Shown here: positions 25,046 through 38,783 of the stretch, in pieces | Numbering within the stretch: the first letter of the stretch is position 1 | Layout of the letters: each line of letters starts with the position of its first letter | Source of the DNA: Haloarchaeobius amylolyticus | GTDB taxonomy: Archaea > Halobacteriota > Halobacteria > Halobacteriales > Natrialbaceae | Direction: 5' to 3' | Length of the DNA: 64,000 nt | Assembly (NCBI RefSeq): GCF_026616195.1 | Contig: NZ_JANHDH010000002.1 | Span: 248,001 to 312,000, forward strand | Translations under genes and position numbers: made by a program | Notes under the pieces: generated by a model | The model's database searches: none | Seen by the model: the letters and a program-made list of their open reading frames with translations, nothing else | Told to the model about the DNA's origin: nothing

Positions 25046-25849
25046 TCAGGCCAGCGCGACGACGCGGTTCGACCCGGCCGTACCGTTCATCCCGGCGCAG
25101 GGCCTGTTCTTCCCGCCCGCAGCCCTGGGCAGTTCGATCTCGTGGGTCGTGTTGTAGTCCGAGAAGGACATCTTCACGCTGAGATTGGCCGCCCGGCCGT
25201 TGACCACGTAGGTCGCGTTCATCGTCGACTGCAGGAGGTTCTTCGAGTCCTTGTCGATGTACTGGCGGTAGGTCACCTCGCCGAAGTCGACGTTCCCGGT
25301 GTCGTTGCCGACCAGTTGCTGGATGGCCTCCTGGTTCGGTCTGACCTCGATGACGTAGACGTCCTGTCCGTTCAGGGTGCCGTTGCGCAGCGTCGTCTCG
25401 GAGTTGTTGAGGATCTCCTGCTGGGCGCCGAGGGTGGCGTTCGCGCGCCACGGGCTGCGGTCGACGTCGGACTGGCTCCACTCGTCGTCGATGAACAGAC
25501 ACTGCTGCTCGCCGAAGATGTACGCCTCGGAGAACGAGCGCGTCTGCGTCGAGTTCGTCCGGACGGCGGTGACGACGTTCGTCGCGGCCATGCGCTGGGC
25601 GCTGATGTTCACCGTCCCGCTGGACTCGGTGCGCAGCTCGTTGTCGGAGAACTCGACGACCGTGACCATCGAGTAGTTGTAGGCGTGGACCGACTGCATC
25701 TGGTTCACCGCGTCGGCCTTGATCTCCTTCCCTTCCGGGGAGTCGTCGTCGCCGTCGTCGGTCGGTGTGCCGACGAAGGCACTACAGCCGGCGAGGGCGA
25801 CGAGGAGCGCGAGGGCGACCGTGGTGAAGACGTGTTTCCTGCTGTTCAT
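25046..25849 (-). CDS. Exported haloarchaeal lipoprotein (DUF7537-like)
   Basis: A 267-residue lipoprotein. The N-terminus is a Sec-type signal (basic MNSRKH, hydrophobic core, LAGC lipobox at residues 19-22), unusual in a window dominated by Tat signals. The mature part resembles a haloarchaeal lipoprotein family with a LolA/LppX-like beta fold: repeated Asn-Ser/Thr sequons and YRQYIDKDSKNLLQSTMNAT. Function unknown. It is tail-to-tail with the dUTPase-like gene with 22 bases between them. Confidence 0.8.
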   Translation of the reverse strand: MNSRKHVFTTVALALLVALAGCSAFVGTPTDDGDDDSPEGKEIKADAVNQMQSVHAYNYSMVTVVEFSDNELRTESSGTVNISAQRMAATNVVTAVRTNSTQTRSFSEAYIFGEQQCLFIDDEWSQSDVDRSPWRANATLGAQQEILNNSETTLRNGTLNGQDVYVIEVRPNQEAIQQLVGNDTGNVDFGEVTYRQYIDKDSKNLLQSTMNATYVVNGRAANLSVKMSFSDYNTTHEIELPRAAGGKNRPCAGMNGTAGSNRVVALA

Positions 25850-26374
25850 GACGGGATGGTCGTTCGCCAGACAGTAGCCCCCAGGCTGCTACAACCTTTT
25901 TGGTCCAGCGACGGCCGCGGCCTGGGTTTTCAGGGAACCAGCTGGAAACGTGGTGGGTGCGGGGTGCGTGGATGGTCCGTGGAAAGTGTGGGATTCTGTG
26001 GTGGGGTCGGGGTCGCTGGAGAGATTCGCGAATCATGGCTGGTGTTCGGAGGAGTCGATGGGGGAAGTCTCACAGACGTGTGGCTGGCGCCGGACGTCTG
26101 GTGGCCTCCGGACGTCTGGTGGTCTCTGGACGTCTGGTGGCCTCTGGACGTCTGGTGGCCTACGTAACTCGCGCTGGCGGAACGAAAGACCGCACCCGAA
26201 CCCACCCCGCACAGCTCCGAAACCACACCCTCCCCAGCCGATTGTGCTCCTCGCTTCGTTCCGCCGTGCTCCACTTCGCTGCGGTGCTCATCCCTCGCGC
26301 GCTACCGACTCGCGGTCTGAGACACGCGAGTCCCCGCGCGCCACCCAGAAGGTCAGTCTCGTATCCGGCCGGCT
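25850..26374. other. Long intergenic region with a tandem repeat and no supported gene
   Basis: No open frame here has haloarchaeal codon and amino-acid usage. The part from 25880 to 26070 is GT-rich and composition differs from its flanks. It contains the 18-base tandem repeat at 26092-26163 and, at about 26235-26345, short GC-rich palindromic motifs such as CTCGCTTCGTTC and CACTTCGCTGCGGTG, of a type seen often between haloarchaeal genes. Confidence 0.6.
26092..26163. repeat. Tandem repeat, 4 copies of an 18-base unit
   Basis: Unit GGACGTCTGGTGGCCTCT occurs four times in a row with one or two differences per copy (26092-26109, 26110-26127, 26128-26145, 26146-26163). A degenerate fifth copy directly precedes it at about 26074-26091. 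The period is a multiple of three. Both strands are open across it, but no convincing protein contains it. Confidence 0.9.
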
Positions 26375-26722
26375 TCACCCACCCTCCCCATCGACCGCGA
26401 AGTACCGGTCCGCGTGCTTCGCACAGCCGGGGTTGAACGCGTGTCCGCAGTCGGGGCAGGCGTCGTCGCACTCGCGGTACTCGGTCACCGTCAGTTCGGT
26501 CCCACAGGCGCCACAGAGCACGCCCGGCTGGTCGAACTCGGCCCGCGGGATGCGGTCGGGGTCGTGGTCCGCGACGGCCTCGTGGCACCGGAAACACGGG
26601 TAGTACCGGTCGCAGCAGGCGAAGCGCAGGGCGACCACGTCGCGTCGGGTGTCGTAGTGGGCACACCGCGTCTCGGGGTCGACCGAGACGCCGAAGACCG
26701 GGACGCCGTGGATTCGTCGCAC
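26375..26722 (-). CDS. CHY zinc-finger protein
   Basis: A 115-residue protein with the CHY zinc-finger pattern: CAHYDTRRDVVALRFACC, then YPCFRCHEAVADHD, then CGACGTELT and CPDCGHAFNPGCAKH, giving three or four metal sites. No ATG fits: the GTG at 26722 is the natural start, just before RIHGVPVFGV, and the open frame upstream is antisense-like Arg/Pro-rich sequence. It lies 23 bases after the stop of the LVIVD-repeat gene and may be co-transcribed with it. Function is unknown, and ubiquitin-ligase roles in eukaryotes do not transfer. Confidence 0.85.
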   Translation of the reverse strand: MRRIHGVPVFGVSVDPETRCAHYDTRRDVVALRFACCDRYYPCFRCHEAVADHDPDRIPRAEFDQPGVLCGACGTELTVTEYRECDDACPDCGHAFNPGCAKHADRYFAVDGEGG

Positions 26723-26745
26723 GGGTGGCCCTCCGGGGCCCAGCG

Positions 26746-28722
26746 TCAGGAGTCTTCCCCCTCGCGGGCGCCGTGGTCGAGGTCGACCCCCGGCAGGGAC
26801 CCGAAGAGGCGGTCGCGGACCCGGTAGGCCGCGCTTCCGGCGCCGACGACGCCGAGGGCACCGAGGCCGCCCGAGGAGACACCGAGCACCGTGTTGTCCT
26901 CGGTCGTTCCGGCGAGTGGGGTCCACGTCTCGCCGCCGTCGGTGCTGTAGGAGACGGGGCCGAAGGTGTACGTCCGCGTGTTCTCGAGGCCGCCGGGGGC
27001 CTCCGCGAAGTAGGTGAGTTCGCCGCCGTCGGTCGGCAGGTCGAAGGTGACCGTGGTCCGGTCGTTGACCGTCTCAGTGGTGGTCGCGTCACCGCCGACG
27101 ACGCTCCACTCGGCCGGAATCTCGTCGCGGACCCGGACCTCGGTGTCGGTCGCGACGGTGAGGTCGACCTGGTTGGTCTGGCCGGCGGTGAACGTCGAGC
27201 CGTCGTCCTCGCGCTCGGCGGCGACGCTGGTGCCGCCGTCGGCGTCGAACGGGATGTACTCGTGCCGGAGCGCGTAGACGCCGGTGTTGATGTCCGCGGC
27301 GAAGGTGATGCCGTCGCGCTCGACCGCACCCCAGGTGAACGGGGTGGCCGAGTTCAGGCCCTCCATCTTCGAGTCCGCGGGCACGTCCTCGTGGGGGAGG
27401 TAGTAGCCCTCCTCCCGGAGTTGCCAGATATCGGTGTCGACGTCGAGGTACCGGACCCCGCCGTGGTAGTGGGCGAGGTGGACCCAGCCGTCCTCGGTCA
27501 CGTCGAAGTTGTGGGGGCTCAGGGTGAAGTTCTGGAAGCTGGTCTCGGCGTGGAGTTCCCACGAGTCCAGTTCGGCCAGGTTGGGCGAGCCGTCGTACCC
27601 CTCGTCGAGGCCGTCGGCGTCGAGCAGGTACAGTTTGCCCGAGGAGCCGCCGTCGACGCTCGGGGTCTCCTGTCCGGCGACGACGACCCGCCGGCCGTCG
27701 AGCAGCCGCGGCGCGGGTTCGGCGTAGTGCGCCCGGTCCATCTCGAACCGGCCGATCTCTTCGATGTTCGCCGGGTCCGAGAGGTCGAGCACCCGCAACC
27801 CGAGGTCCCAGTACGAGAGGTACCCGGTGGGTGTCCCGGTCCGCGGGTCGTCCTGGATGGTGATGTCGTGGATGTACTTCGTGCCGCCGGTGCCGAGGCC
27901 GCCGTCGCCGTCGATGGTCCAGCGGTTCACCAGCGTGAACTGGCCGGTCGCACGGTCGAAGTGCAGCACGTAGAGGCCGGCGGTCCCGTCGGCGTCGAGG
28001 TCCTTGCAGGCGAAGACGTAGTCCTCGCCGCCGACCCGGTGGTAGGTGGCGTTGTGGCTCCCGGTCGTCCAGGCGGTGTACGCACCGACGACCTCCGGGT
28101 TGCCCTTGTCGCGCACGTCGACGGCGACGACGCTGCCGGCGGTCGCGTCGGTCGATTCCCCGTCGGTGCCGGGCGTCGGGTCCGTCTCGTTGAACAGCGC
28201 GGTGTAGGGCTGCTTCGAGAGGAAGACGTAGGCGCCGTCGGCCGAGACCTTCACGTCCATCACGGCCGCGGCCGCGTCGTCGTTGCGGACGAACGAGAGC
28301 ACCGAGAGTTCGGCGTTCCGCAGTTCGGTGAACGACTCGGCGTTCGTGAAGTCGGAGATATCGAGGATGGCCATGCCGCGGTCGTTCGTCGGGTCGTCCG
28401 AGGAGAAGAACCCGACGTAGGCGAAGTCGCCGTGGGTCCGGATCTCCGTGATGGCACCGTAGTGTGGGTCGTCGGCGGTCCCGGCGTTGCTGGAGGTGCC
28501 GACACCGCCGAGGCTGTGGTAGTCCAGTTTCTCGACGGTCTCGCTGTCGGTGTGCTGGGCCGGGTCGGTGTGGTCGTGGTCGCCGCTGGACGTGCTGGAG
28601 TCGCTGGACCCCAGTCCGTCGTGGGCGCTGGCGGTCCCGGTGGCGGCGAGGCCGAGGGCGCTCGCGGCGGCCGTCCTGATAACTGTACGTCGGTCGAAGC
28701 CGTCGTCCGTGCGGTCTGTCAT
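26746..28722 (-). CDS. Tat-exported LVIVD-repeat protein with shared C-terminal module
   Basis: A 658-residue exported protein. The signal is DRRTVIRTAAASALGLAATG ending at ASA. The middle (residues 60-510) has LVIVD-type repeats of a beta-propeller-like fold, such as GMAILDISDFTN, VVAVDVRDKGNPEVVG and GLRVLDLSDPANIEEIG. From about residue 518 to 625 it carries a module (FTAGQTNQVDLTV ... RDEIPAEWSVV ... YFAEAPGG) that also ends the two subtilases upstream. A short hydrophobic Gly/Ala stretch near residue 630 may anchor it, which the other two lack. It lies 42 bases after the adjoining protease gene. Ligand unknown. Confidence 0.85.
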   Translation of the reverse strand: MTDRTDDGFDRRTVIRTAAASALGLAATGTASAHDGLGSSDSSTSSGDHDHTDPAQHTDSETVEKLDYHSLGGVGTSSNAGTADDPHYGAITEIRTHGDFAYVGFFSSDDPTNDRGMAILDISDFTNAESFTELRNAELSVLSFVRNDDAAAAVMDVKVSADGAYVFLSKQPYTALFNETDPTPGTDGESTDATAGSVVAVDVRDKGNPEVVGAYTAWTTGSHNATYHRVGGEDYVFACKDLDADGTAGLYVLHFDRATGQFTLVNRWTIDGDGGLGTGGTKYIHDITIQDDPRTGTPTGYLSYWDLGLRVLDLSDPANIEEIGRFEMDRAHYAEPAPRLLDGRRVVVAGQETPSVDGGSSGKLYLLDADGLDEGYDGSPNLAELDSWELHAETSFQNFTLSPHNFDVTEDGWVHLAHYHGGVRYLDVDTDIWQLREEGYYLPHEDVPADSKMEGLNSATPFTWGAVERDGITFAADINTGVYALRHEYIPFDADGGTSVAAEREDDGSTFTAGQTNQVDLTVATDTEVRVRDEIPAEWSVVGGDATTTETVNDRTTVTFDLPTDGGELTYFAEAPGGLENTRTYTFGPVSYSTDGGETWTPLAGTTEDNTVLGVSSGGLGALGVVGAGSAAYRVRDRLFGSLPGVDLDHGAREGEDS

Positions 28723-28764
28723 GGGATATCGGGTCGAGTGCGGTTCGCGGGCGGTGCTGGCTGC

Positions 28765-31026
28765 CTACGTCTCCTCGGCGACGACCGCGTTCGTCTCGGT
28801 CCCGCCGAAGCCGACCCAGTCGTCGTCGGTCCGGTCGCTCCGGGCGGCCGCGGGGCCGAAGGTGTAGGTCCCGGTGTCCTCGCTCTCGCTGGGCGCCTCG
28901 ACGAGGTACCGGAACGTCCGGGCGTCGTCGTCGGGAGCCACGCTCGCGTCGAAGTGGACGTGCTGGACGTCCCCGGCCGGTTCGACGTGGCTCACGTCGT
29001 CGGATACGTCGGCGAGGACGGTCCACTCGGCCGGGACCGTGTCCCGGACCGCGGCGGTGTGGCTCACGGCGCCGACGGTCACCGCGACCTCGTTGGTCTG
29101 GCCGGCGGTGAACGTCGAGCCGTCGTCGTCCCGCGAGCCGGCGACCGAGAGCCACGCCGGCGTGTCCGCGTCCACGAGGTCGGTCTCGTGGAAGTGCGCG
29201 AAGTCGCCGGACTCGGCCCGCCGGACCGCGGCCGCGGCGTCGACGAAGCCCGCGCCGGCGTTCCAGGGCGTGTAGGCCGTCTGGCGGTCCCTGGCGGTGG
29301 CCTCGACCGTGTTGATGACCTCGATGGGGTGCGGCTCGTGGCCGTTCTGGCGGGCCGCGTCGATGACGAGGGCGCAGACCCCGGCCGCGTTCGGGCAGGC
29401 CATGCTCGTCCCGGTCATCGGCGTGTAGTACGGCTCGGCGTCGGGTTCGAGCGCGTCCAGCGAGTCCGTCGGGCCGACCGTGGCCATGATGGAGTCGCCG
29501 GGGATGGCGACGCCGGGGCGGTAGAGCCCGACCGGGCGGTACCGGGTCGGCTCGCCGCCCAGCTCCTCGATGCCCTCGTAGTCGATGGTGTACGAGACCG
29601 TGACCGAGACCATCGGCTCGACCTCGACGTAGTACGTCTCGCCGCCCGCGATGTCCGTGGCCAGGGTGCGATGTTGGTGGACCGGTTCCTCGCCCATCTG
29701 GGCGATGACGGTGCCGTCGCGCGACCCCTCGTGGACCGAGACGCGCACCTGCTCGCCGTCGGGGTCGATGTCCAGCGTGAGCTCCAGCATGTCGGCGTTC
29801 GCGGGCGCCTCCCACTCCCAGAAGTCGCTGTCCGTCTGGACGTCGCCCGTCGCCGCCGGGCCGACCTCGCCGGTCCAGGTCCCCACGTCGACGAGGAACT
29901 GTCCCGAGTCGACCGCGGCGTGGTACCGCCAGAGCCGCCAGAGGGCGGTCGCCCGGTCGTAGTTGGTCTCGCGGTCCTCGTCGGGGGTGCGTCCCCGCGA
30001 GGAGAAGTCCGTGACCGAACGCTGGTCGTTGGTCGCCGCCACACAGAGCACGTGGGGTGCCTTCGCGAAGCGCGAGAGCGTGTCGGCGTCGGGGCCCGAG
30101 TTGCCCGCGGCGAAGACGGGGACGATGCCGTCGGTGAAGGCCACCCAGGAGGCGACGTTGACCGGGTCGTTCGGGTTGTATCGCACGTCGCGGGCCACCC
30201 CGTAGGAGTTCGACACCACGTCGGGGTCGAAGTCCACGTCGGGGTCGCGGGCCCGCGAGAGCATGTGGTCCCACGCGCCGACGACGTAGGGCAGGTAGAC
30301 CGCGGTGTTCGTGGAGTAGACCGACAGCCGGGCGCCCGGGGCGTTCCCGCGGTACTGGCCCTCGCTGGCGCTCCCGTCGCCCGCGACGATGCCCGAGCAG
30401 TGGGTCCCGTGGCCGATGTCGTCGGTGTCGGCGCCGGCGCCGAGGTCGAGCCAGGCCGCGTCCCGCGATTCGAGCGGTTCGTCCACCCACTGCCAGTTCG
30501 ACTCGAGCCGCCCCTCGAAGTCGGGGTGGGGGCCGCTGAACCCGGAGTCGATGACGACCGCGTCGACCGAGGAGCCGTCGTAGCCGAGTTCGTCCTGGAC
30601 CACGTCGACGCCCGTCAGCTCGCGGGAGTCGTCGGTGAACCACTCCAGTTCCTCGGCCTTCTTCACGCGCCTGACGCCGTCCCAGCCCGCGACCGTGGTG
30701 AGCTGGTCCGGCGTCAGCGCGGTGTAGGTCATCGGCAACTCGCGGTACTCGTGTCTCCCGGCCTGCAGGTCGAGGTCGTCCAGTCGGTCCATCGACTCGC
30801 GCGAGTCGAAGACGACGATGCCCTCGATGGGCGCGTCGCCCGAGAGGTCGAAGGCGTCGTCGAGGACGCTGGTGTCGGTCGCGGCGGCCGCAGCGCCCAC
30901 GCCCCCAGCGAGGGGGAGCGCGGCCGCGCCGGCCAGGCCGGCGGTCGCCGTGAGGAACGTTCGCCGGTCGAGTCGTGCCCGTGAGTCGCGTGTCGCGGAA
31001 CCGTGTGTCGTGTCGTCGTCTGTCAT
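28765..31026 (-). CDS. Tat-exported subtilisin-like protease (S8) with PPC-like insert
   Basis: A 753-residue extracellular serine protease. The Tat signal is LDRRTFLTATAGLAGAAALP. An I9-like propeptide follows (about residues 60-130). The triad is complete: D160 in AVVIDSGFSG, H206 in DIGHGTHCSG, S541 in MTGTSMACP, with oxyanion N309 in FAAGNSG. Residues 370-490 form a beta insert resembling a pre-peptidase C-terminal (PPC) domain placed between oxyanion Asn and Ser, an unusual position. The last 115 residues are the module shared with its two neighbours. It should be secreted and self-activated. Confidence 0.93.
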   Translation of the reverse strand: MTDDDTTHGSATRDSRARLDRRTFLTATAGLAGAAALPLAGGVGAAAAATDTSVLDDAFDLSGDAPIEGIVVFDSRESMDRLDDLDLQAGRHEYRELPMTYTALTPDQLTTVAGWDGVRRVKKAEELEWFTDDSRELTGVDVVQDELGYDGSSVDAVVIDSGFSGPHPDFEGRLESNWQWVDEPLESRDAAWLDLGAGADTDDIGHGTHCSGIVAGDGSASEGQYRGNAPGARLSVYSTNTAVYLPYVVGAWDHMLSRARDPDVDFDPDVVSNSYGVARDVRYNPNDPVNVASWVAFTDGIVPVFAAGNSGPDADTLSRFAKAPHVLCVAATNDQRSVTDFSSRGRTPDEDRETNYDRATALWRLWRYHAAVDSGQFLVDVGTWTGEVGPAATGDVQTDSDFWEWEAPANADMLELTLDIDPDGEQVRVSVHEGSRDGTVIAQMGEEPVHQHRTLATDIAGGETYYVEVEPMVSVTVSYTIDYEGIEELGGEPTRYRPVGLYRPGVAIPGDSIMATVGPTDSLDALEPDAEPYYTPMTGTSMACPNAAGVCALVIDAARQNGHEPHPIEVINTVEATARDRQTAYTPWNAGAGFVDAAAAVRRAESGDFAHFHETDLVDADTPAWLSVAGSRDDDGSTFTAGQTNEVAVTVGAVSHTAAVRDTVPAEWTVLADVSDDVSHVEPAGDVQHVHFDASVAPDDDARTFRYLVEAPSESEDTGTYTFGPAAARSDRTDDDWVGFGGTETNAVVAEET

Positions 31027-31323
31027 GGATGGGGTACTGGTGGTGTCTCGCTGTCTGGAATCGTCGTGGGTCTGGTGGGCTATGGGTCGTCGGTGGCCCG
31101 TCGCAGAAGGGGGAAGGGGGTGGCAGCCGTGGCGTCCGGCTGCCGCGTCCCGTCGACAGGTTCCCTCGCCGCCGTCGCAGCCGCCGGTCGTCGGCGGGCC
31201 GGCCGCCCTGTGGCACGGGGCGGTGGCCCATCGTGTCCCCTCGACAGTCCCCGGGACTCGTGGGGGGTCAGCCCGGGGCCGTCGTGGCGGCGGGGCGGGT
31301 CATCGGGAGCCTGGACAGGAGCC

Positions 31324-34119
31324 TCAGGTCGACTGGGCGACCACGTAGTTGGTCTCGCCGGTGCCGGAGACCGCCACCCAGCCGCGGGCCTCGCCCGGCT
31401 TCACCTCCTGTGGCCCGAACTGGTAGGCGTCGGAGGCCGAGACGTTGTCCGGGGCCTCCGCGAAGTAGGTGTAGCTCGTCTCGGTGTCGGCGGTCGCCCT
31501 CTCGGTGAAGTAGACGTACTGGACGCCGTTGCTCACCTCGACGCGCTCGACGTCGTCGGAGTAGTCCGTGAGGACGGTCCACGAGGTCGGGATCACGTCC
31601 CGGACCTGGCTGTCCGTGGATGGGTTCGCGGTCACCGTCACCTGGTTGGTCTGGCCGCCGGTGAACACCGAGCCGTCGTCCTCGCGCGTGCCGGAGACGA
31701 AGAAGCCGTCCTCGACCGAGACGTCGAGCGTGCAGTGTGCCTGCACGTCGTCGCCGTTGACCGCGCCGGGGACGTCCACGAGCTTCGCGACCACGTAGAA
31801 CGTCCGTGTTTCGCTGTCCCGCGGGAGCGAGACGGTCGCGCTGGCGTCGCCCTGCAGGCCCTGCGCCCGGGCGACGATGTTGGGTTCGCCGTACTGCGCC
31901 GGCTCCTCGGCGTCGTAGACGAACAGGTCCACGTGGGGGGCGCCCTTGGTCTGGCCCTTGTTGCCGCCCGAGTAGTACTCGAAGCTCACGCTCGCCTCGA
32001 CCGTGCCGGGGCCGGCCTGGACGTGGCCCGCGACCGCGCGGCTGTCCTCGGGCAGGTTCAGGCCCAGCACCTCGTCGGAACTGCCGGAGAGTTCGCGCGT
32101 GACCGCGTCGACCGCGGCGTCGGGGTTCACCCGGCCGAAGCCCTCGTAGGGGTCGCGGCCGCCGAACTCGTAGGTCGCCGGGTGGGCGCGGTGGAACGGT
32201 GCGGCGGTGAAGGCCGTCTCGCTGGCGGTCGCGAGCAGGACCTGCTTGAGCCGGTAGACGTCGTCGAGGTCGGCGGCGGCCGGGGCCGGGAGCGCGATGC
32301 TCGCCGGGGCGTCCTCCTCCATCGCCTGCGAGACGAGGCCGGCCACGCCGGTCGTGAAGGGCGTCGCCATCGAGGTACCGGCCTTGCCCGTGTAGTCGCG
32401 GATGGCGGGCTGCTCGGACTCGGCCGCGTTCGCGTCACCCGTGAGCGCCGCGTTGATGAGGTCGTCGACGTAGCCGCCCGGTGCGGATACGTCGGGTTTC
32501 ATGTACTGGTCGAGTTCGTCCTCGTCGAGCGCGCCGAGTCCGCCCGAGGAGTACGCGCTGAGGCCGTCGAGGGGGCCGGTCGCGGTCACCGAGATGCACT
32601 CGTCCGCGATGGCGGGTGAGCCGTTCCCGTTGGCCGGGGTGGCCGCGTTACCGGCCGCGGCACAGGTGAGGATGCCGGCCTGGGCGATGTCCTTGATGCC
32701 GGCCGGGATGGAGTCGAGGATGCCACCCACCGAGCCGAGCGGAAGCCCGCCGACGTAGCCCCACGACATGTTCACGGCGCGCATGTTGAACATGTCCGCG
32801 AAGGCCTCGGCGTGGTCGGCGAGGTGGCCGGTCGGGCCGGAGAGACCCTGCAGGCCGACGAGGCTCTGGTTCGGCGCGACACCGGTGTGGAGCCCGACCG
32901 GGGACCCGGTGCGGTCGCCGTTCGTGTCCTGCGGGTCGGTGAACGCGCCGACGCTGATGGACTCCAGGTCGCCCGAGGAGACGAGTTCGCCGCCGCTGGC
33001 GCGGGCGATGACGGTGTAGGTCCCGGACTGCTCGGCCGGGGCCTCCACGACGACGTTGTCGGTGATGCCCGAGTCGCTGGTGAGCGTGGCCGCGTCGAGT
33101 TCCTGCCCGTCGGGCCCCTCGATGAGGAGTTCGATGGCGGTGCCGTACGCCGAGCCGAACACGCCCGTCCCGGCTTCAGCCTGCACCTCGTACTGGCGCG
33201 TGTCACCGAGCGCGAGCACCTCGCCGGGGGCCTCGGTCGTGACGGTCTCGGGGTCGATGGCGCTCGCCCGCCCCGTCCCGCCCATGATGGACGCGCAGTG
33301 GCTCCCGTGGCCGTTCGGGTCACGTGGCTTCTCGTGGAGACCGTAGCGCGTGCCCTCGTCGAACCAGCCGACCGTCTTCGGGTCGTCCGCGGTGGTCCCG
33401 ACGTCCTCGAAGACGACGCTCGGGTCGGCCGCCTCGAACTCGCCCTCGAACGCGTAGTAGCCGGCCGAGATCTCGTACTCGGCCGTGACGTTCAGCCACG
33501 TCTCGACGACGAACCGGTAGGTGTGGCCCGACTTCACGTAGTTGTCGATGGCCTCGGGCTGGCTACCGGTCGTCGAGGCGGCGACGCGCTCCCAGCCGTC
33601 CTCGGTCTGCCTGTCGAGGTACAGCTCGAGGTCCTCGCCGTTCCCGTCGACGTCGCCGGGCGTCCAGGTCATCGTCACGTCGATGCCCTCGGCGTCTGTC
33701 GGCGTGGTGAACTCGTGGGTCTTCGTCGTCGGGTCCGCGAACGTGCCCGGCCCGATGGTGCCCGAGAAGGACTCGCCCTCGCCGGCGAGGTCGATGCGTT
33801 CTCGCTCCGACTTCGGGATGACGAGGTCGCCGTTCCGGACCGTCGCCCGGACCCCGTTCCACGGCCCGAGGTCTGGATGCCGTGCTTCGATACCGGAGTC
33901 GGTCAGTGCGATGGTGCGGTCAGGCCGCCCGCGGTAGCCGCGGTCCCAGACGCGGCTGGCCTCGCGGGCCCGCCAGTTGAAGAAGTCGGGGTCCAGTTCG
34001 CCGGTCGCGGCCGCCGCGGACCCGGTCGCGCCGGCTCCGAGCAGGCCTGCTGCAGCGAGCGTCCCTGTCGACCGCAGGAAGTTCCGTCGTGAGAGGTTCG
34101 TGCCGTCGTCGCGTGTCAT
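31324..34119 (-). CDS. Large Tat-exported subtilisin-like protease (S8)
   Basis: A 931-residue secreted protease. The start at 34119 is supported by GGAGG (34127-34131) seven bases before the ATG and by a Tat signal (SRRNFLRSTGTLAAAGLLGA at residues 10-29). The 48-residue upstream extension would leave the signal internal. The catalytic Asp is D74 (ALTDSGIEARHPD), the His is in DPNGHGSHCAS and the Ser in KAGTSMATPF. D74 comes straight after the signal, with no I9 propeptide. The region between Asp and His holds two long beta inserts. The C-terminal 120 residues are the module shared with the next two genes. Confidence 0.9.
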   Translation of the reverse strand: MTRDDGTNLSRRNFLRSTGTLAAAGLLGAGATGSAAAATGELDPDFFNWRAREASRVWDRGYRGRPDRTIALTDSGIEARHPDLGPWNGVRATVRNGDLVIPKSERERIDLAGEGESFSGTIGPGTFADPTTKTHEFTTPTDAEGIDVTMTWTPGDVDGNGEDLELYLDRQTEDGWERVAASTTGSQPEAIDNYVKSGHTYRFVVETWLNVTAEYEISAGYYAFEGEFEAADPSVVFEDVGTTADDPKTVGWFDEGTRYGLHEKPRDPNGHGSHCASIMGGTGRASAIDPETVTTEAPGEVLALGDTRQYEVQAEAGTGVFGSAYGTAIELLIEGPDGQELDAATLTSDSGITDNVVVEAPAEQSGTYTVIARASGGELVSSGDLESISVGAFTDPQDTNGDRTGSPVGLHTGVAPNQSLVGLQGLSGPTGHLADHAEAFADMFNMRAVNMSWGYVGGLPLGSVGGILDSIPAGIKDIAQAGILTCAAAGNAATPANGNGSPAIADECISVTATGPLDGLSAYSSGGLGALDEDELDQYMKPDVSAPGGYVDDLINAALTGDANAAESEQPAIRDYTGKAGTSMATPFTTGVAGLVSQAMEEDAPASIALPAPAAADLDDVYRLKQVLLATASETAFTAAPFHRAHPATYEFGGRDPYEGFGRVNPDAAVDAVTRELSGSSDEVLGLNLPEDSRAVAGHVQAGPGTVEASVSFEYYSGGNKGQTKGAPHVDLFVYDAEEPAQYGEPNIVARAQGLQGDASATVSLPRDSETRTFYVVAKLVDVPGAVNGDDVQAHCTLDVSVEDGFFVSGTREDDGSVFTGGQTNQVTVTANPSTDSQVRDVIPTSWTVLTDYSDDVERVEVSNGVQYVYFTERATADTETSYTYFAEAPDNVSASDAYQFGPQEVKPGEARGWVAVSGTGETNYVVAQST

Positions 34120-34126
34120 GCCACGT

Positions 34127-34131
34127 CCTCC
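34127..34131 (-). promoter_or_regulatory. Shine-Dalgarno site deciding the start of the large protease
   Basis: GGAGG on the minus strand, seven bases before the ATG at 34119. Most genes here look leaderless, so a good ribosome site supports this internal start over the upstream ATG at 34263. Confidence 0.5.
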
Positions 34132-34410
34132 CAGTGCAGTGACGCCCTGTTGAAGCCGAGACCAAATATCACGCGAAGCGACATCTTCGCCGCCGGTCCG
34201 CGCCGTCTCGTTCGAAACTGTCTCTGCCACGTCGTGCGGTTTACCACTGTTCTCGTGTCCCATGGTGGTCCATCCCGAACGTCGATGCAGGATTCAAAAG
34301 TGATTGTGACAAACGCGTCCAAATGAGTGTTACAGGGCCTGTAGGTGGCCAAAACAGGCGGTGTACTGTTCGGTTCTCACCAGTACCTATCGGCGACACT
34401 GGATACCTAA

Positions 34411-36366
34411 TCAAGTTAGGTGGTCGGTGGGGTCGCCGTCGAACAGGGCGTCGAGCAGTTTCTGCTCGGCGACCCGGACGTGCTGGTGGAAGGTCGGCGG
34501 CGTCACGCCGAGGAGGTCGGCCATCTCGTCGCCGGAGGTCTCGCGGGGCCAGTCGAAGAAGCCGGCCCGGTAGGCCGTCTCCAGCACCTCGGACTGCCGG
34601 TCGGTCAGCGACTGCTCGATGGCGGCCCGGTAGGCCACGTCGCTCGTGGCCCCGCGCTCGACCTCGCGCTGGGAGAGCAACTCCACGTCGAGGACCCCGG
34701 AGACGCGGTCGAGGACGGTCGAGACGTCGGCGTCGGTCGGTACGTCGGCCACGATGCGGCACTCGCCGTCGCCGACGCGGACGCTCCGGACCGACCCGCC
34801 CACGTCCGCGATGGCCTCGACGACGGAGTCGCCGTCGACGACCACCCGGACCAGCGCCTCGGCGTCGCGCTCGGCCAGTATCTCGACCGTCGCCGGGGCC
34901 GCCTCGACGAGGGCCTCGAGGTCCGCCAGGGCCGCACCCCGCACCGCGAACAGCTCCGAGACCGACCCGTCGGGGTTGCTGACGGTCCCGGTGAGTTCGA
35001 GCCTCGCGTCGGTCTCGTGGGCGACCTGCACGAGGAACTCGTCGGGGTCGGTGACCGCGAAGGTGAGTTCCGTCCGGGTGTCGCTCACCAGTGCCTTGCG
35101 CGTCTCGGCGGCCCGGATGGCGTGGCCGACCGTCTCCCCGAGTTCGGCCAGCACGGTCCGTTCCAGCTCCTCGAAGGCGAACGGCCGGGGCGCGTACACG
35201 CAGAGGCAACCGTACACCACGTCGTCGTAGACCAGCGGGATGGCCGCGGCGGACTCGTAGCCGCGTTCGAGGGCCGCCCGCCGCCAGGCGTGGGCCACGG
35301 GGTCCTCGGAGATGTTCTGGGCGAACCTGATGCTGCGCTCCCTGACGGCCGTCCCCGCGGTCACGTCCTCGCCGCGGAGCTCGTCCGCGGCCGGGCGGTC
35401 CTCCAGGTAGTCGGCGCCGTCACCCGCCCAGGCGGTCGGCTCGACCCGGTCGGTCGCCGGGTCGTACTCCCCGACCCAGGCGAACGCGTAGGGGTCGGCC
35501 GCGGCGAACTGGTCACAGAGCGTCTGCTCGATCTCCTCGCGCGAGTCCGTCCGGACGAGCGTGCTCGTCACCCGGCGGATGACGTCGTTGACCCGGTGCA
35601 GCGTCTCGAGTCGCTCGGCCTGCTCCTCGAGTTCGGCCTCGCGCCGCCGGCGGTCCCGGATGTCCCGACCGATGCCACAGATGGCCTGTGTCCCACCGTC
35701 GTCGAGCAGCGACGCCGTGAACTCGTAGGGGCGTTCCTCGCCGGCTTTCGTCAGCAGGTGGGCCGTCTCCGACGCCTTGCCCTGCATCACGACGCGCCCG
35801 ATGGCGTTCTCGATGGTCTCGCGTTCGTCCTCGGGGACGAAGTCGGTCGGCACCATCGCCGCGACCTCGGCGTCGGTGTAGCCCGTCACCTCGGTGAGCG
35901 TGCGGTTCCACCGGAGGAAGTTCCCGTCGAGGTCGAAGACGAAGAAGACGTCGCGCAACTCCTCGAGGGCGGCACTCGCCAGCGACGTGCCGGCGTCGCT
36001 GCCCTGCTGGCCGCCGGCGACGCTGTCGACGGTCGCCGCGAGGTGGTCGCCCCAGTCGGCGGTCGGGTCGCCCCGGGGGACCGTCGCCGCGGCCCCCACG
36101 TCGAGGGCGGTCGTCGCGGCCTCGTCGTCCTCGTAGACGTACACGACCGGGGCCTCGTACCGGCCGAGGGTCGCCACGAGTTCCGTGACGGTCCGGTCGG
36201 CGAGCGACCCACAGACCACGCACTCGACGTGTCCGTCGAGCTGGTGACGGGCGCTGGTGAGGGTCTCGACGGTGCGGGCCTGGAACTCGCGTGCCGTGAG
36301 GCACAGGCCGAGTGCGTCCGCGTCCTCGCCGTCGTCGACCACGAGGACCTCGGCCTCGCGTGACAT
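34411..36366 (-). CDS. PAS-GAF-HTH regulator of the bacterio-opsin activator (Bat) family
   Basis: A 651-residue sensory regulator. Residues 1-110 resemble a receiver domain (EVLVVDDGEDADALGL) but the phospho-acceptor position reads VECVVCGS, so it is a pseudo-receiver. A PAS domain follows at about 135-260 (DVFFVFDLDGNFLRWNRTL), a GAF domain at about 285-430, the Bat domain at 440-590 and HTH_10 at 590-645 (LTDRQSEVLETAYRAGFFDW). It is likely a cytosolic one-component regulator sensing a small molecule or redox state. It is divergent from the membrane regulator at 36523. The N-terminal 47 residues upstream of the chosen ATG are not conserved-like. Confidence 0.92.
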   Translation of the reverse strand: MSREAEVLVVDDGEDADALGLCLTAREFQARTVETLTSARHQLDGHVECVVCGSLADRTVTELVATLGRYEAPVVYVYEDDEAATTALDVGAAATVPRGDPTADWGDHLAATVDSVAGGQQGSDAGTSLASAALEELRDVFFVFDLDGNFLRWNRTLTEVTGYTDAEVAAMVPTDFVPEDERETIENAIGRVVMQGKASETAHLLTKAGEERPYEFTASLLDDGGTQAICGIGRDIRDRRRREAELEEQAERLETLHRVNDVIRRVTSTLVRTDSREEIEQTLCDQFAAADPYAFAWVGEYDPATDRVEPTAWAGDGADYLEDRPAADELRGEDVTAGTAVRERSIRFAQNISEDPVAHAWRRAALERGYESAAAIPLVYDDVVYGCLCVYAPRPFAFEELERTVLAELGETVGHAIRAAETRKALVSDTRTELTFAVTDPDEFLVQVAHETDARLELTGTVSNPDGSVSELFAVRGAALADLEALVEAAPATVEILAERDAEALVRVVVDGDSVVEAIADVGGSVRSVRVGDGECRIVADVPTDADVSTVLDRVSGVLDVELLSQREVERGATSDVAYRAAIEQSLTDRQSEVLETAYRAGFFDWPRETSGDEMADLLGVTPPTFHQHVRVAEQKLLDALFDGDPTDHLT

Positions 36367-36522
36367 GACACTGCGTATGCAGAGGAGGTAGTTGAGTGTG
36401 GTACCAAGTGACTCTGGGAACTGGTCGGCGGCCGACCCCGCCCCCGTCCCCGCCACCGGCCACCCTGTTCCGGCAAATATGGCAACACATTTGGTCTCGA
36501 ATGACATGCTCTAACCCGAAGC

Positions 36523-37992
36523 ATGGCACGTGTCGACGGGGGCGAACCCGGGTACCCGACGGCGACACTCGCACACGCCCTCGCGGTCCTCGTGGTCCTG
36601 TCCGGCGCCACCGCGGCCCTGGCGGGGCCGGTCGCTGCCGGGGCCGTCGGGGCGGCCGAGACTGCCGGAACTGCCGACACGCTCGGGACTGCCGGAACCG
36701 TCGGAACTCCCGACGCCTCCGGAACCGATTCCGTCGCGGTCGACCGCCCCGACAACGAGACGGACCTCGTCGACGGGACGGTGAACGACACCACCGACGA
36801 CACGACCAACACCACCGACGAGACCCTCTCCGGCACGACGGACACCACCAGCGACACCACCGACACCGTCGAGAACACGACCGACGCGTCCGGCGACACC
36901 GTCACCGCCTCCGGCTCGCTCTCGACCGACCTGACGGCGGGCGACACCACGACGTCGACCGACACCGACGCGACGCTGGACGACGGGCTCACGACGAACA
37001 CCTCGGGCGGGTCGTCGGGAGCCGTGAACACCTCCGGGAACGCGAGCCTCACTGCAGACGGCGACACCGCCTCGCTGTCGGCCGACGCCACCGTCGACTC
37101 GGTCTCCCTGTCGGCCGGCGTCGTCGCCCCCGTCGAATCCCTGCTGACGGTCCTCGACTCCGGTGACGCCACCGCAGCCCGGCAGCCCGACAGCACCAGC
37201 CGGCGCGTCGACCGGGCGGCGTGGCGCGGCGGCCAGTTCGCCACCGGGACGACCGGCGACCAGTCCCGGGCCGGAGACGTCCTCGCCGGGTCGCCCGACG
37301 GGCGAGACGCGGCAGCGACCGGGGCGGCCGGCTGGCTCCCCGCGACCCCGGCCGGCCTCGGCGGGGCGGTTCCGGGGCCGATGGGTGCTGGCCTCGCCGC
37401 CGCCTCGCTGGCCGTCGGCGGCACCGCATACACGCGTGGCCGGTCCATCCTCCGGTGGCTGCGGGACGCGCTCGACGACTCGCCACTGGGTGCGGTCCTC
37501 CGGTACAGCCGGTACGACGGCTCGGACCCGCTGGCCCACGAGGACCGGGCACGTATCCACCGCGTCGTGACCGACGCGCCCGGCGTCTACCTCTCCGCCA
37601 TCAGCGACGCCTCGGACGTCCCCCTCTCGACGGTTCGCCACCACGTGCGCATCCTGGAGGAGGAGGGCCTCGTCACGAGCGTCAAGCTAGAGGGCAAGCG
37701 CCGGTACTTCCCGGCCGACACCGAGGACCGCGAACTCCACGCGGCCCTGGCCAGCCCGCCGCGGGCCGCCATCATCGAGCGACTCGCCGCCGAGGGTGGG
37801 GCGCTCGTCGGGGAACTCGCCGAGGCGCTCGACCGCGACCCCAGCACGCTCTCGCACCACCTCGGCCGGCTGGAAGACGCGGGGCTGGTCGAGCGCGAAC
37901 GCGACGGACGGTCGGTCGTGAACCGGCTCACGCCGACCGCGAGAGAAGGACTGGCGGCGGCGAGCCCGGCCGCGCCGGTCGCCGACGACTGA
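36523..37992 (+). CDS. Membrane-anchored winged-helix regulator with Thr/Asp-rich external domain
   Basis: A 489-residue protein of unusual layout. A hydrophobic segment (residues 16-36) could be a signal or first membrane helix. Residues 40-200 are low-complexity Thr, Asp and Ser (DTTDDTTNTTDE), probably outside and possibly glycosylated. A second hydrophobic stretch (about 282-305) is followed by two winged-helix domains, one with STVRHHVRILEEEGLV and one with STLSHHLGRLEDAGLVERER. The DNA-binding part would be cytosolic and tethered to the membrane, as in one-component signal-transducing regulators. It is divergent from the Bat-type gene and 7 bases ahead of a convergent HTH_10 gene. Confidence 0.82.
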   Translation: MARVDGGEPGYPTATLAHALAVLVVLSGATAALAGPVAAGAVGAAETAGTADTLGTAGTVGTPDASGTDSVAVDRPDNETDLVDGTVNDTTDDTTNTTDETLSGTTDTTSDTTDTVENTTDASGDTVTASGSLSTDLTAGDTTTSTDTDATLDDGLTTNTSGGSSGAVNTSGNASLTADGDTASLSADATVDSVSLSAGVVAPVESLLTVLDSGDATAARQPDSTSRRVDRAAWRGGQFATGTTGDQSRAGDVLAGSPDGRDAAATGAAGWLPATPAGLGGAVPGPMGAGLAAASLAVGGTAYTRGRSILRWLRDALDDSPLGAVLRYSRYDGSDPLAHEDRARIHRVVTDAPGVYLSAISDASDVPLSTVRHHVRILEEEGLVTSVKLEGKRRYFPADTEDRELHAALASPPRAAIIERLAAEGGALVGELAEALDRDPSTLSHHLGRLEDAGLVERERDGRSVVNRLTPTAREGLAAASPAAPVADD

Positions 37993-37999
37993 GTCTGTA

Positions 38000-38653
38000 C
38001 TACTCCTCGGGCAGGTCGTCCGCGAGCGTCTCGCGGACCAGCGTCTCCATGCCGCGGCGGAGCCGTTCCGAGGCCGCCTGCCCGGAGACGCCCACGTCGG
38101 CGCCGAGGCCCCGGAGCGTCGTCTGCCGCGGGATGTCGAAGTACCCCACCTCGACGGCCCGCGTCAGGATCTCCTTCTGGGCCGGGGTCAGGTCCGCCCC
38201 CTTGTCGTCGTGCTCGACGGCGCCGCTGTGGATCGATTCGACGGTCGGCGTGAGGCCGACGTCCTGACAGGTGTCGCGGAAACTGGCGAAGGCGTCGCGG
38301 TCGGGAAAGAGCGTCTTGACCGTCCAGCCCTCGCCGTCCGTCGCGGCGTTGAGGATGACCCCGTCGAGGTCGACGACCGCCCGGTACGCCTCCACGTCGG
38401 GGAGGTCTGCCGGGCAGGTCATCCGGTAGAGTCGGCGGCTCCGCTCGTCGGCGAGAACCGTGCTGTCGGTGACGGTGGGGTCCTCCTCGAGTGCCGCCTC
38501 GAAGGCGTCGAAGTCGCCGCCGGTCACCCAGCAGACGGCCCGAAGAGGCATCTCCGCCGTCGTGTCGAACTGTTCGACCGTCGCCTGCATGTCTGTCGGT
38601 ACGGCGAGTGCATGCTGCAGAAGTTGGGAGTCGAGAGTGAAACGAACGAACAT
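38000..38653 (-). CDS. HTH_10 transcription regulator (Bat-like)
   Basis: A 217-residue regulator. The N-terminal 150 residues form the ligand/partner domain typical of Bat-family proteins. The C-terminal HTH_10 is clear (LTPAQKEILTRAVEVGYFDI, then VGVSGQAASERLRRGMETL). The ATG at 38653 (MFVRFTLDSQLLQHAL) was chosen over one 13 codons earlier. It is convergent with the membrane regulator gene and end-spaced by 7 bases. Confidence 0.88.
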   Translation of the reverse strand: MFVRFTLDSQLLQHALAVPTDMQATVEQFDTTAEMPLRAVCWVTGGDFDAFEAALEEDPTVTDSTVLADERSRRLYRMTCPADLPDVEAYRAVVDLDGVILNAATDGEGWTVKTLFPDRDAFASFRDTCQDVGLTPTVESIHSGAVEHDDKGADLTPAQKEILTRAVEVGYFDIPRQTTLRGLGADVGVSGQAASERLRRGMETLVRETLADDLPEE

Positions 38654-38783
38654 GAGATTATACTGTTGTGATGGTTCGCAATCGGGTCGCATCTAGACGC
38701 GGTCACGCTGACGTGTTGCCACCTGCGTCATGTGTGTACTGACCGCTCCAGTACTGATTCGCGGTGTTCGGCGTATATCACTG

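Follow-up and report, generated by a model that had tools for sequence, protein, structure and literature searches.

Three adjacent genes in a 64,000-nucleotide stretch of Haloarchaeobius amylolyticus DNA (the window) encode an LVIVD beta-propeller protein, P0001, and two S8 subtilases, P0002 and P0003. A sequence-only reading of this locus had claimed that all three proteins are exported by the Tat route and end in one common module. What is this module, how did three proteins come to share it, and what might it do at the cell surface? The gene assignments are supported by Pfam profiles: P0001 exceeds the gathering score of LVIVD (PF08309; 23.9 versus 20.2 bits), and P0002 and P0003 exceed the Peptidase_S8 (PF00082) cut-off of 21.8 bits, at 100.7 and 107.1 bits, with the Asp, His and Ser motifs present. 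P0001 scores below the curated cut-off of 100 bits for choice-of-anchor B (TIGR04312; 27.6 bits, E 1.6e-6). Tat-like signals were recognized in P0001, P0002 and P0003, in agreement with the proposed export. The end at 34119 given earlier for the P0003 gene coincides with its likely start, Met49, an internal ATG directly 5' of the Tat motif, but the full open reading frame extends to 34263. Coordinates of the features are collected in Table 1.

Table 1. Features of the module locus and its flanking regulator genes, in window coordinates.
Feature	Coordinates	Strand	Evidence
P0001, LVIVD beta-propeller protein, 658 aa, Tat signal	26746..28722	minus	Pfam LVIVD 23.9 bits
P0002, S8 subtilase, type S8a, 753 aa, Tat signal	28765..31026	minus	Peptidase_S8 100.7 bits
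P0003, S8 subtilase, type S8b, 979 aa, Tat signal	31324..34263	minus	Peptidase_S8 107.1 bits
Module copy 1, residues 500-616 of P0001	26875..27225	minus	
Module copy 2, residues 628-753 of P0002, reaching the last residue; copy used for modelling	28768..29145	minus	
Module copy 3, residues 857-979 of P0003, reaching the last residue	31327..31695	minus	
36-bp identical stretch, coding for DDGSTFTAGQTN	27172..27207 and 29092..29127	minus	direct comparison
P0001 tail 3' of the module: Gly/Ala-rich, weakly hydrophobic, then RVRDR; candidate membrane tail	26749..26874	minus	KD17 1.11
Bat-type regulator (PAS, GAF, BAT, HTH_10), directly upstream of P0003, same strand	34411..36507	minus	
Winged-helix regulator	36523..37992	plus	

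The C-termini of the three proteins share a module of about 120 residues with 38 to 48% identity. Local alignment of the module pairs gave scores of 196, 214 and 252, far above the maxima of 65 to 73 reached in 500 shuffles, and BLASTP aligned P0002 with P0003 at E 3e-29 and P0001 with P0003 at E 2e-21. When the conserved first 16 residues were removed, the scores were 122, 129 and 178 against maxima of 57 to 71 (1000 shuffles). One C-terminal module is thus common to all three proteins, and their similarity persists without the stretch of identical bases discussed below.

Within the window genome, exactly three module copies were found at E 1 or better, all in this locus. Across 391 Halobacteria genomes, 38 were module-positive at E 1e-6 or better, with 133 matches in total and 1 to 12 per genome; two of the six genomes of the window's genus are among the positives. 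This patchy spread fits loss or transfer. A scan of a genome collection (84,980 species) returned 22 loci, all titled haloarchaeal; because the scan was limited to two peptide patterns, it does not prove that the module is absent outside Halobacteria. A phylum-wide search matched 15 of 392 genomes. Eight of them had been seen before, namely the window genome itself and others from its order. The other seven share only the phylum with the window and match weakly (E 7e-10 to 9e-7). When six of these seven stretches were examined, the profile matches lay in open reading frames in three of them, as two to four tandem repeats each, and two of these three repeat proteins scored above the Pfam cut-off for DUF11. 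We also considered a mobile element and rejected it, as the seven plasmid records that carry module relatives (Haladaptatus and Halocatena; 12 places) are all typed non-mobilizable.

The 130 matches beyond the window genome were covered by 97 retrieved stretches; together with the window, these yielded 132 host open reading frames. The module therefore does occur in other exported haloarchaeal proteins: 121 of the 132 have a pattern-based Tat-like signal, and no lipobox-like motif was found in any of these 121. In 111 hosts the module ends 0 to 7 residues from the C-terminus, and no host carries two copies. Labeled by the nearest of six prototypes, the hosts comprise 45 S8b, 29 LVIVD, 18 S8a, 14 S15, 13 M14 and 5 purple-acid-phosphatase-like proteins. 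Eight have no label; they include fragments, one overlapping frame beside a masked stretch, and three S15-like frames that joined the S15 group in a separate grouping. Pfam searches of 17 chosen hosts outside the window supported the types in most cases, with four hosts lacking a family over the cut-off, and a motif scan found recognizable Asp, His and Ser motifs in 58 of the 63 S8 hosts. The window genome has 20 S8 profile matches in 18 frames (read from the list), two of which carry the module. Among minor observations, P0002 and P0003 have long inserts in their catalytic domains, at different sites in each and PPC-like by eye, and M14 hosts show weak PPC matches. One frame beside an S8a gene (L019:4525-5616) combines the module with a Tat-like signal and a long acidic linker of Gly, Asp and Asn. 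It has no Pfam domain and may be an exported protein with the module alone.

Recent duplication or gene conversion within the window cluster had been suggested on the strength of 36 identical bases in the P0001 and P0002 genes, whose identity and positions we confirmed. Agreement of all 12 codons, given identical residues, has a probability of 2.2e-3 from the codon usage of six window genes, before correction for choosing the longest run, and this, with the identity itself, speaks for such copying. Outside the stretch, codons are shared at 29 of 40 identical residues, compared with 26.1 expected. Against copying, the two corresponding stretches in a genome of the same genus, G328, differ in one residue and in codons, so that identity between the copies is absent there. 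The wider comparison points the same way. In a tree of 124 of the 132 modules (the eight without a host label left out), built from few columns by a quick method, host labels need 20 changes versus 69.1 when shuffled, and genome labels need 101. Each window module is most closely related to modules that sit on the same type of host in other genomes, and not to its neighbors in the window. Because the modules group by host type, the sharing is old; we reject recent duplication, and gene conversion is not needed to account for the 36 bp. We regard an origin of the three similar ends by either process within the cluster as extremely improbable. Judged from these sequence comparisons, the modules have stayed with their host types and the association is an old one. 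Conversion over a very short tract may nevertheless have taken place in the lineage of the window.

To place the module among known domains, we turned to structure. The model, based on 37 sequences, has a mean pLDDT of 94.9 and a pTM of 0.87 and is almost all beta; we confidently predict a beta-sandwich. The best Foldseek match was a CLIPPER (DUF11) domain, 9IFR (E 2.4e-5, TM 0.60). In VIA, 9IFR aligned at Z 10.2 with an rmsd of 2.9 over 109 residues, and several Ig-like adhesin, pilin and integrin domains reached Z 10 to 12. Since many Ig-like folds score in this range, the structural class is clear, but the exact kin, whether the CnaA-like beta-sandwich of DUF11/CLIPPER or another Ig-like fold, is not. 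Cohesin modules (e.g., 2XDH of Archaeoglobus fulgidus) resemble the module as beta-sandwiches, but their fold similarity is weak only (Foldseek E 4.1e-4, TM 0.51). At the sequence level, curated Pfam and NCBIfam gave no match for the module, and no PDB sequence matched the module profile at E 1 or better. Pfam profiles showed weak, sub-threshold similarity to DUF11, NEW3 and bMG10; the DUF11/CLIPPER (PF01345) gathering score was not reached, and one of 37 modules matched at E 0.1, with E 0.014.

The module resembles DUF11/CLIPPER domains (PF01345; PDB 9IFR) as a predicted beta-sandwich of extracellular proteins and in an acidic residue before a conserved Pro (VRDxxP in the module, D-E-x-x-P in DUF11-like repeats). 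It differs from them in that it is never tandem and always C-terminal, and in that its hosts are hydrolases and propellers rather than adhesin stalks. The next nearest sequences outside Halobacteria are the DUF11/bMG10-type tandem repeats of other archaea in the same phylum (L291, L292, L294), whose stronger repeats match at E 4e-11 to 4e-8 each and share the patterns R(D)...G.T..V, P..W and Y..E.P; these are tandem repeats, however, not single C-terminal modules, and no peptidase family was matched in those proteins. A Lys-Asn isopeptide cross-link in the module is unlikely. According to PMC12617251, the CLIPPER cross-link needs Lys; Lys is absent from 68 of 131 modules, and a by-eye alignment puts Arg5, which is at least 90% conserved, at the cross-linking Lys of CLIPPER. 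The same paper describes some DUF11 domains without the isopeptide bond, and a missing bond is therefore not decisive for kinship. No description of the module was found in the open-licence papers searched. We conclude that it represents a real haloarchaeal C-terminal domain family of known structural class, undescribed in the sources searched.

Relatives of the host proteins that lack the module indicate how closely it is tied to each type. S8b cores (E 1e-60) occur in 35 of the 391 genomes, and all 35 are module-positive. S8a cores occur in 53 genomes, 24 of which are without any module match, and the S8a enzyme can therefore do without the module. LVIVD relatives (E 1e-40) occur in 25 of 391 genomes, two of which (G201 and G324) are module-negative. 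Adjoining S8a-LVIVD pairs bear the module on both partners in the window, G328 and G273, and on neither partner in G324 and G201, nor in G327, where the LVIVD frame is broken. These few independent cases suggest that the module has been gained or lost by both partners. In the LVIVD protein of G324, which has no module, the propeller runs straight into a hydrophobic tail that contains Arg. In 13 of the 29 LVIVD hosts, with tails read by eye, a Gly/Ala-rich stretch and then a basic, charged end come after the module. That the LVIVD module stands before a separate, weakly hydrophobic tail, and that a module-less LVIVD protein keeps a similar tail, counts against the module being a plain membrane anchor. 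The full-length LVIVD model has a mean pLDDT of 69.3, with tail blocks at 29 to 34, and therefore settles nothing about the tail.

The arrangement of module hosts in clusters is more than chance. Sixty-four of the 132 host genes share a locus with another host, in 28 multi-host loci altogether. Random placement averaged 2.7 such genes and never exceeded 12 in 2000 trials; it assumed one 3.8 Mb replicon per genome, and tandem duplicates were not discounted (7 of the 28 loci are homotypic). All but one of these loci (27/28) lie on a single strand, and host types are mixed in 21: S8a with S8b in eight, M14 with S8b in six, and other combinations too. The LVIVD-S8a-S8b set is found in two loci (window and G328), and LVIVD-M14-S8a-S8b in one. 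A single module-bearing frame, always S8b, is present in 11 of the 38 positive genomes. The idea that the three window proteins may work as a surface proteolytic system is partly borne out, in its exported hosts and in the peptidases of conserved gene clusters.

Both regulators beside the window cluster have relatives close to module genes elsewhere, the Bat-type one (34411-36507) in 10 other genomes and the winged-helix one (36523-37992) in 13. The neighbor clusters, read by eye, comprise regulators, a module-less S8a-like protease, and antisense or housekeeping frames; an adjoining conserved sortase or receptor gene was sought and not found among the 25 neighbor clusters listed. In G328, an extra module-less S8a-like protease (G328:C1:1068206-1069165; L063) sits between the two subtilases, where the window has about 300 bp. 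A second, shorter BAT/HTH_10 regulator lies near the module gene cluster of the window (38000-38692, minus strand).

Other proteins of the window genome carry a different C-terminal feature. Four other LVIVD-family proteins end in PGF-CTERM-like tails. Genome-wide, 11 PGF-CTERM matches exceed the cut-off and a single archaeosortase A is present; of the 26 PGF-CTERM (TIGR04126) matches that reach E 1 or better, none is located in the genes of P0001, P0002 and P0003. Haloferax volcanii HVO_0405, a Tat substrate with an N-terminal LVIVD domain, is described as ArtA-processed in PMC7157517. The module and the PGF-CTERM of archaeosortase A substrates are alike as C-terminal features of Tat-exported proteins, including LVIVD-family members, but PGF-CTERM consists of a PGF motif, a membrane helix and a basic end, whereas the module is a folded domain.

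The comparisons show a real, portable module that stands strictly at the C-terminus, once per host, has a modelled Ig-like fold of the DUF11/CLIPPER-like class, occurs on unrelated catalytic families and in conserved clusters of endopeptidase, carboxypeptidase and propeller genes, and has long been associated with each host type. As to its role, we tentatively favor, at slightly less than an even chance, a reading in which it retains exported hydrolases at the surface via a common ligand. An anchor or targeting role, as the sequence-only reading suggested, is plausible. The hosts would be exported folded by Tat; they apparently lack a lipobox, and those of the window also lack an archaeosortase signal. 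Outside the cell, the module would bind a common ligand, whether the S-layer, a surface glycan or another module; and the enzymes would be held together at the surface, turning protein into peptides near the cell rather than escaping into the brine. In this scheme the LVIVD propeller, with its extra hydrophobic basic tail in a subset, may be the membrane-held member. We favor a surface role because the peptidases have no other visible anchor, the module is C-terminal, and sister LVIVD proteins use alternative anchors. Counting against surface retention are the 11 of 38 positive genomes with a lone module gene, the module-less S8a enzymes and the separate LVIVD tail, itself weakly hydrophobic and modelled with low confidence. 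Our search for a ligand, receptor or processing enzyme of the module found none, with regulators and the module-less S8a-like protease as the recurring neighbors.

Ig-like domains are often mere spacers or stabilizers, and the module could be a generic accessory domain like PPC or PKD, stabilizing its hosts in high salt or binding insoluble substrates, with no sorting or surface role. The many structural neighbors of its fold, the predominance of hydrolases among its hosts and the sub-threshold likeness to DUF11, NEW3 and bMG10 models agree with such a role, which we nonetheless consider doubtful, given that the 132 hosts, 29 LVIVD propellers included, carry the module once and strictly at the C-terminal end, and that different hosts cluster beyond chance. 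Alternatively, modules could bind each other, and the peptidases could assemble on a tail-held LVIVD protein into an archaeal multi-enzyme exoprotease; the heterotypic composition of 21 of the 28 multi-host loci, the tail in 13 of 29 LVIVD hosts, and the adjoining S8a-LVIVD pairs with the module on both or neither are consistent with this docking. The pairs are few, however, and with one module gene only in 11 of the 38 positive genomes, binding between different module proteins cannot be the rule; we judge homotypic docking unlikely. The C-terminal domain of the T9SS is Ig-like and stands at the very end of exported proteases and of other, unrelated proteins. The module, a predicted beta-sandwich in the same position on a similar range of proteins, might likewise be a cleaved sorting signal for a translocation or attachment machine. 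Its hosts, however, carry Tat-like signals, and haloarchaea are not known to have an outer membrane. The families matched at E 0.1, 10 in Pfam and 8 in NCBIfam under filters that drop weak matches, do not include the Por secretion tail, and no conserved sortase-like gene was noticed among the 25 neighbor clusters listed. We regard a cleaved signal as very improbable.

A more far-reaching reading would be sortase-independent, Tat-linked docking by a DUF11-akin domain without a cross-link, with endopeptidase, carboxypeptidase, dipeptidyl-peptidase and propeller making up a surface-held exoprotease under Bat-type regulation; we offer it as a speculative and, taken whole, rather improbable model. 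Besides the lipobox and archaeosortase routes, we know of little on how Tat-exported haloarchaeal enzymes are retained by the cell. Because it occurs on five or more unrelated types of exported protein and its hosts cluster in different genera, the module is a candidate third retention route, and it may serve as a marker for exoenzyme sets and as a modular tag for surface display in halophiles. Were it a mere stabilizer, it would still be an undescribed family that annotation now misses.

Two further features adjoin the LVIVD gene. Directly downstream, on the minus strand at 26375-26926, lies an open reading frame rich in paired Cys (CC, CFRCH, CGAC, CPDC) that looks like a small zinc-binding protein, presumably of the CHY type. 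The interval that separates the LVIVD gene from the one at 25046-25849 holds four copies of an 18-bp tandem repeat, with 94% matches (26090-26161).
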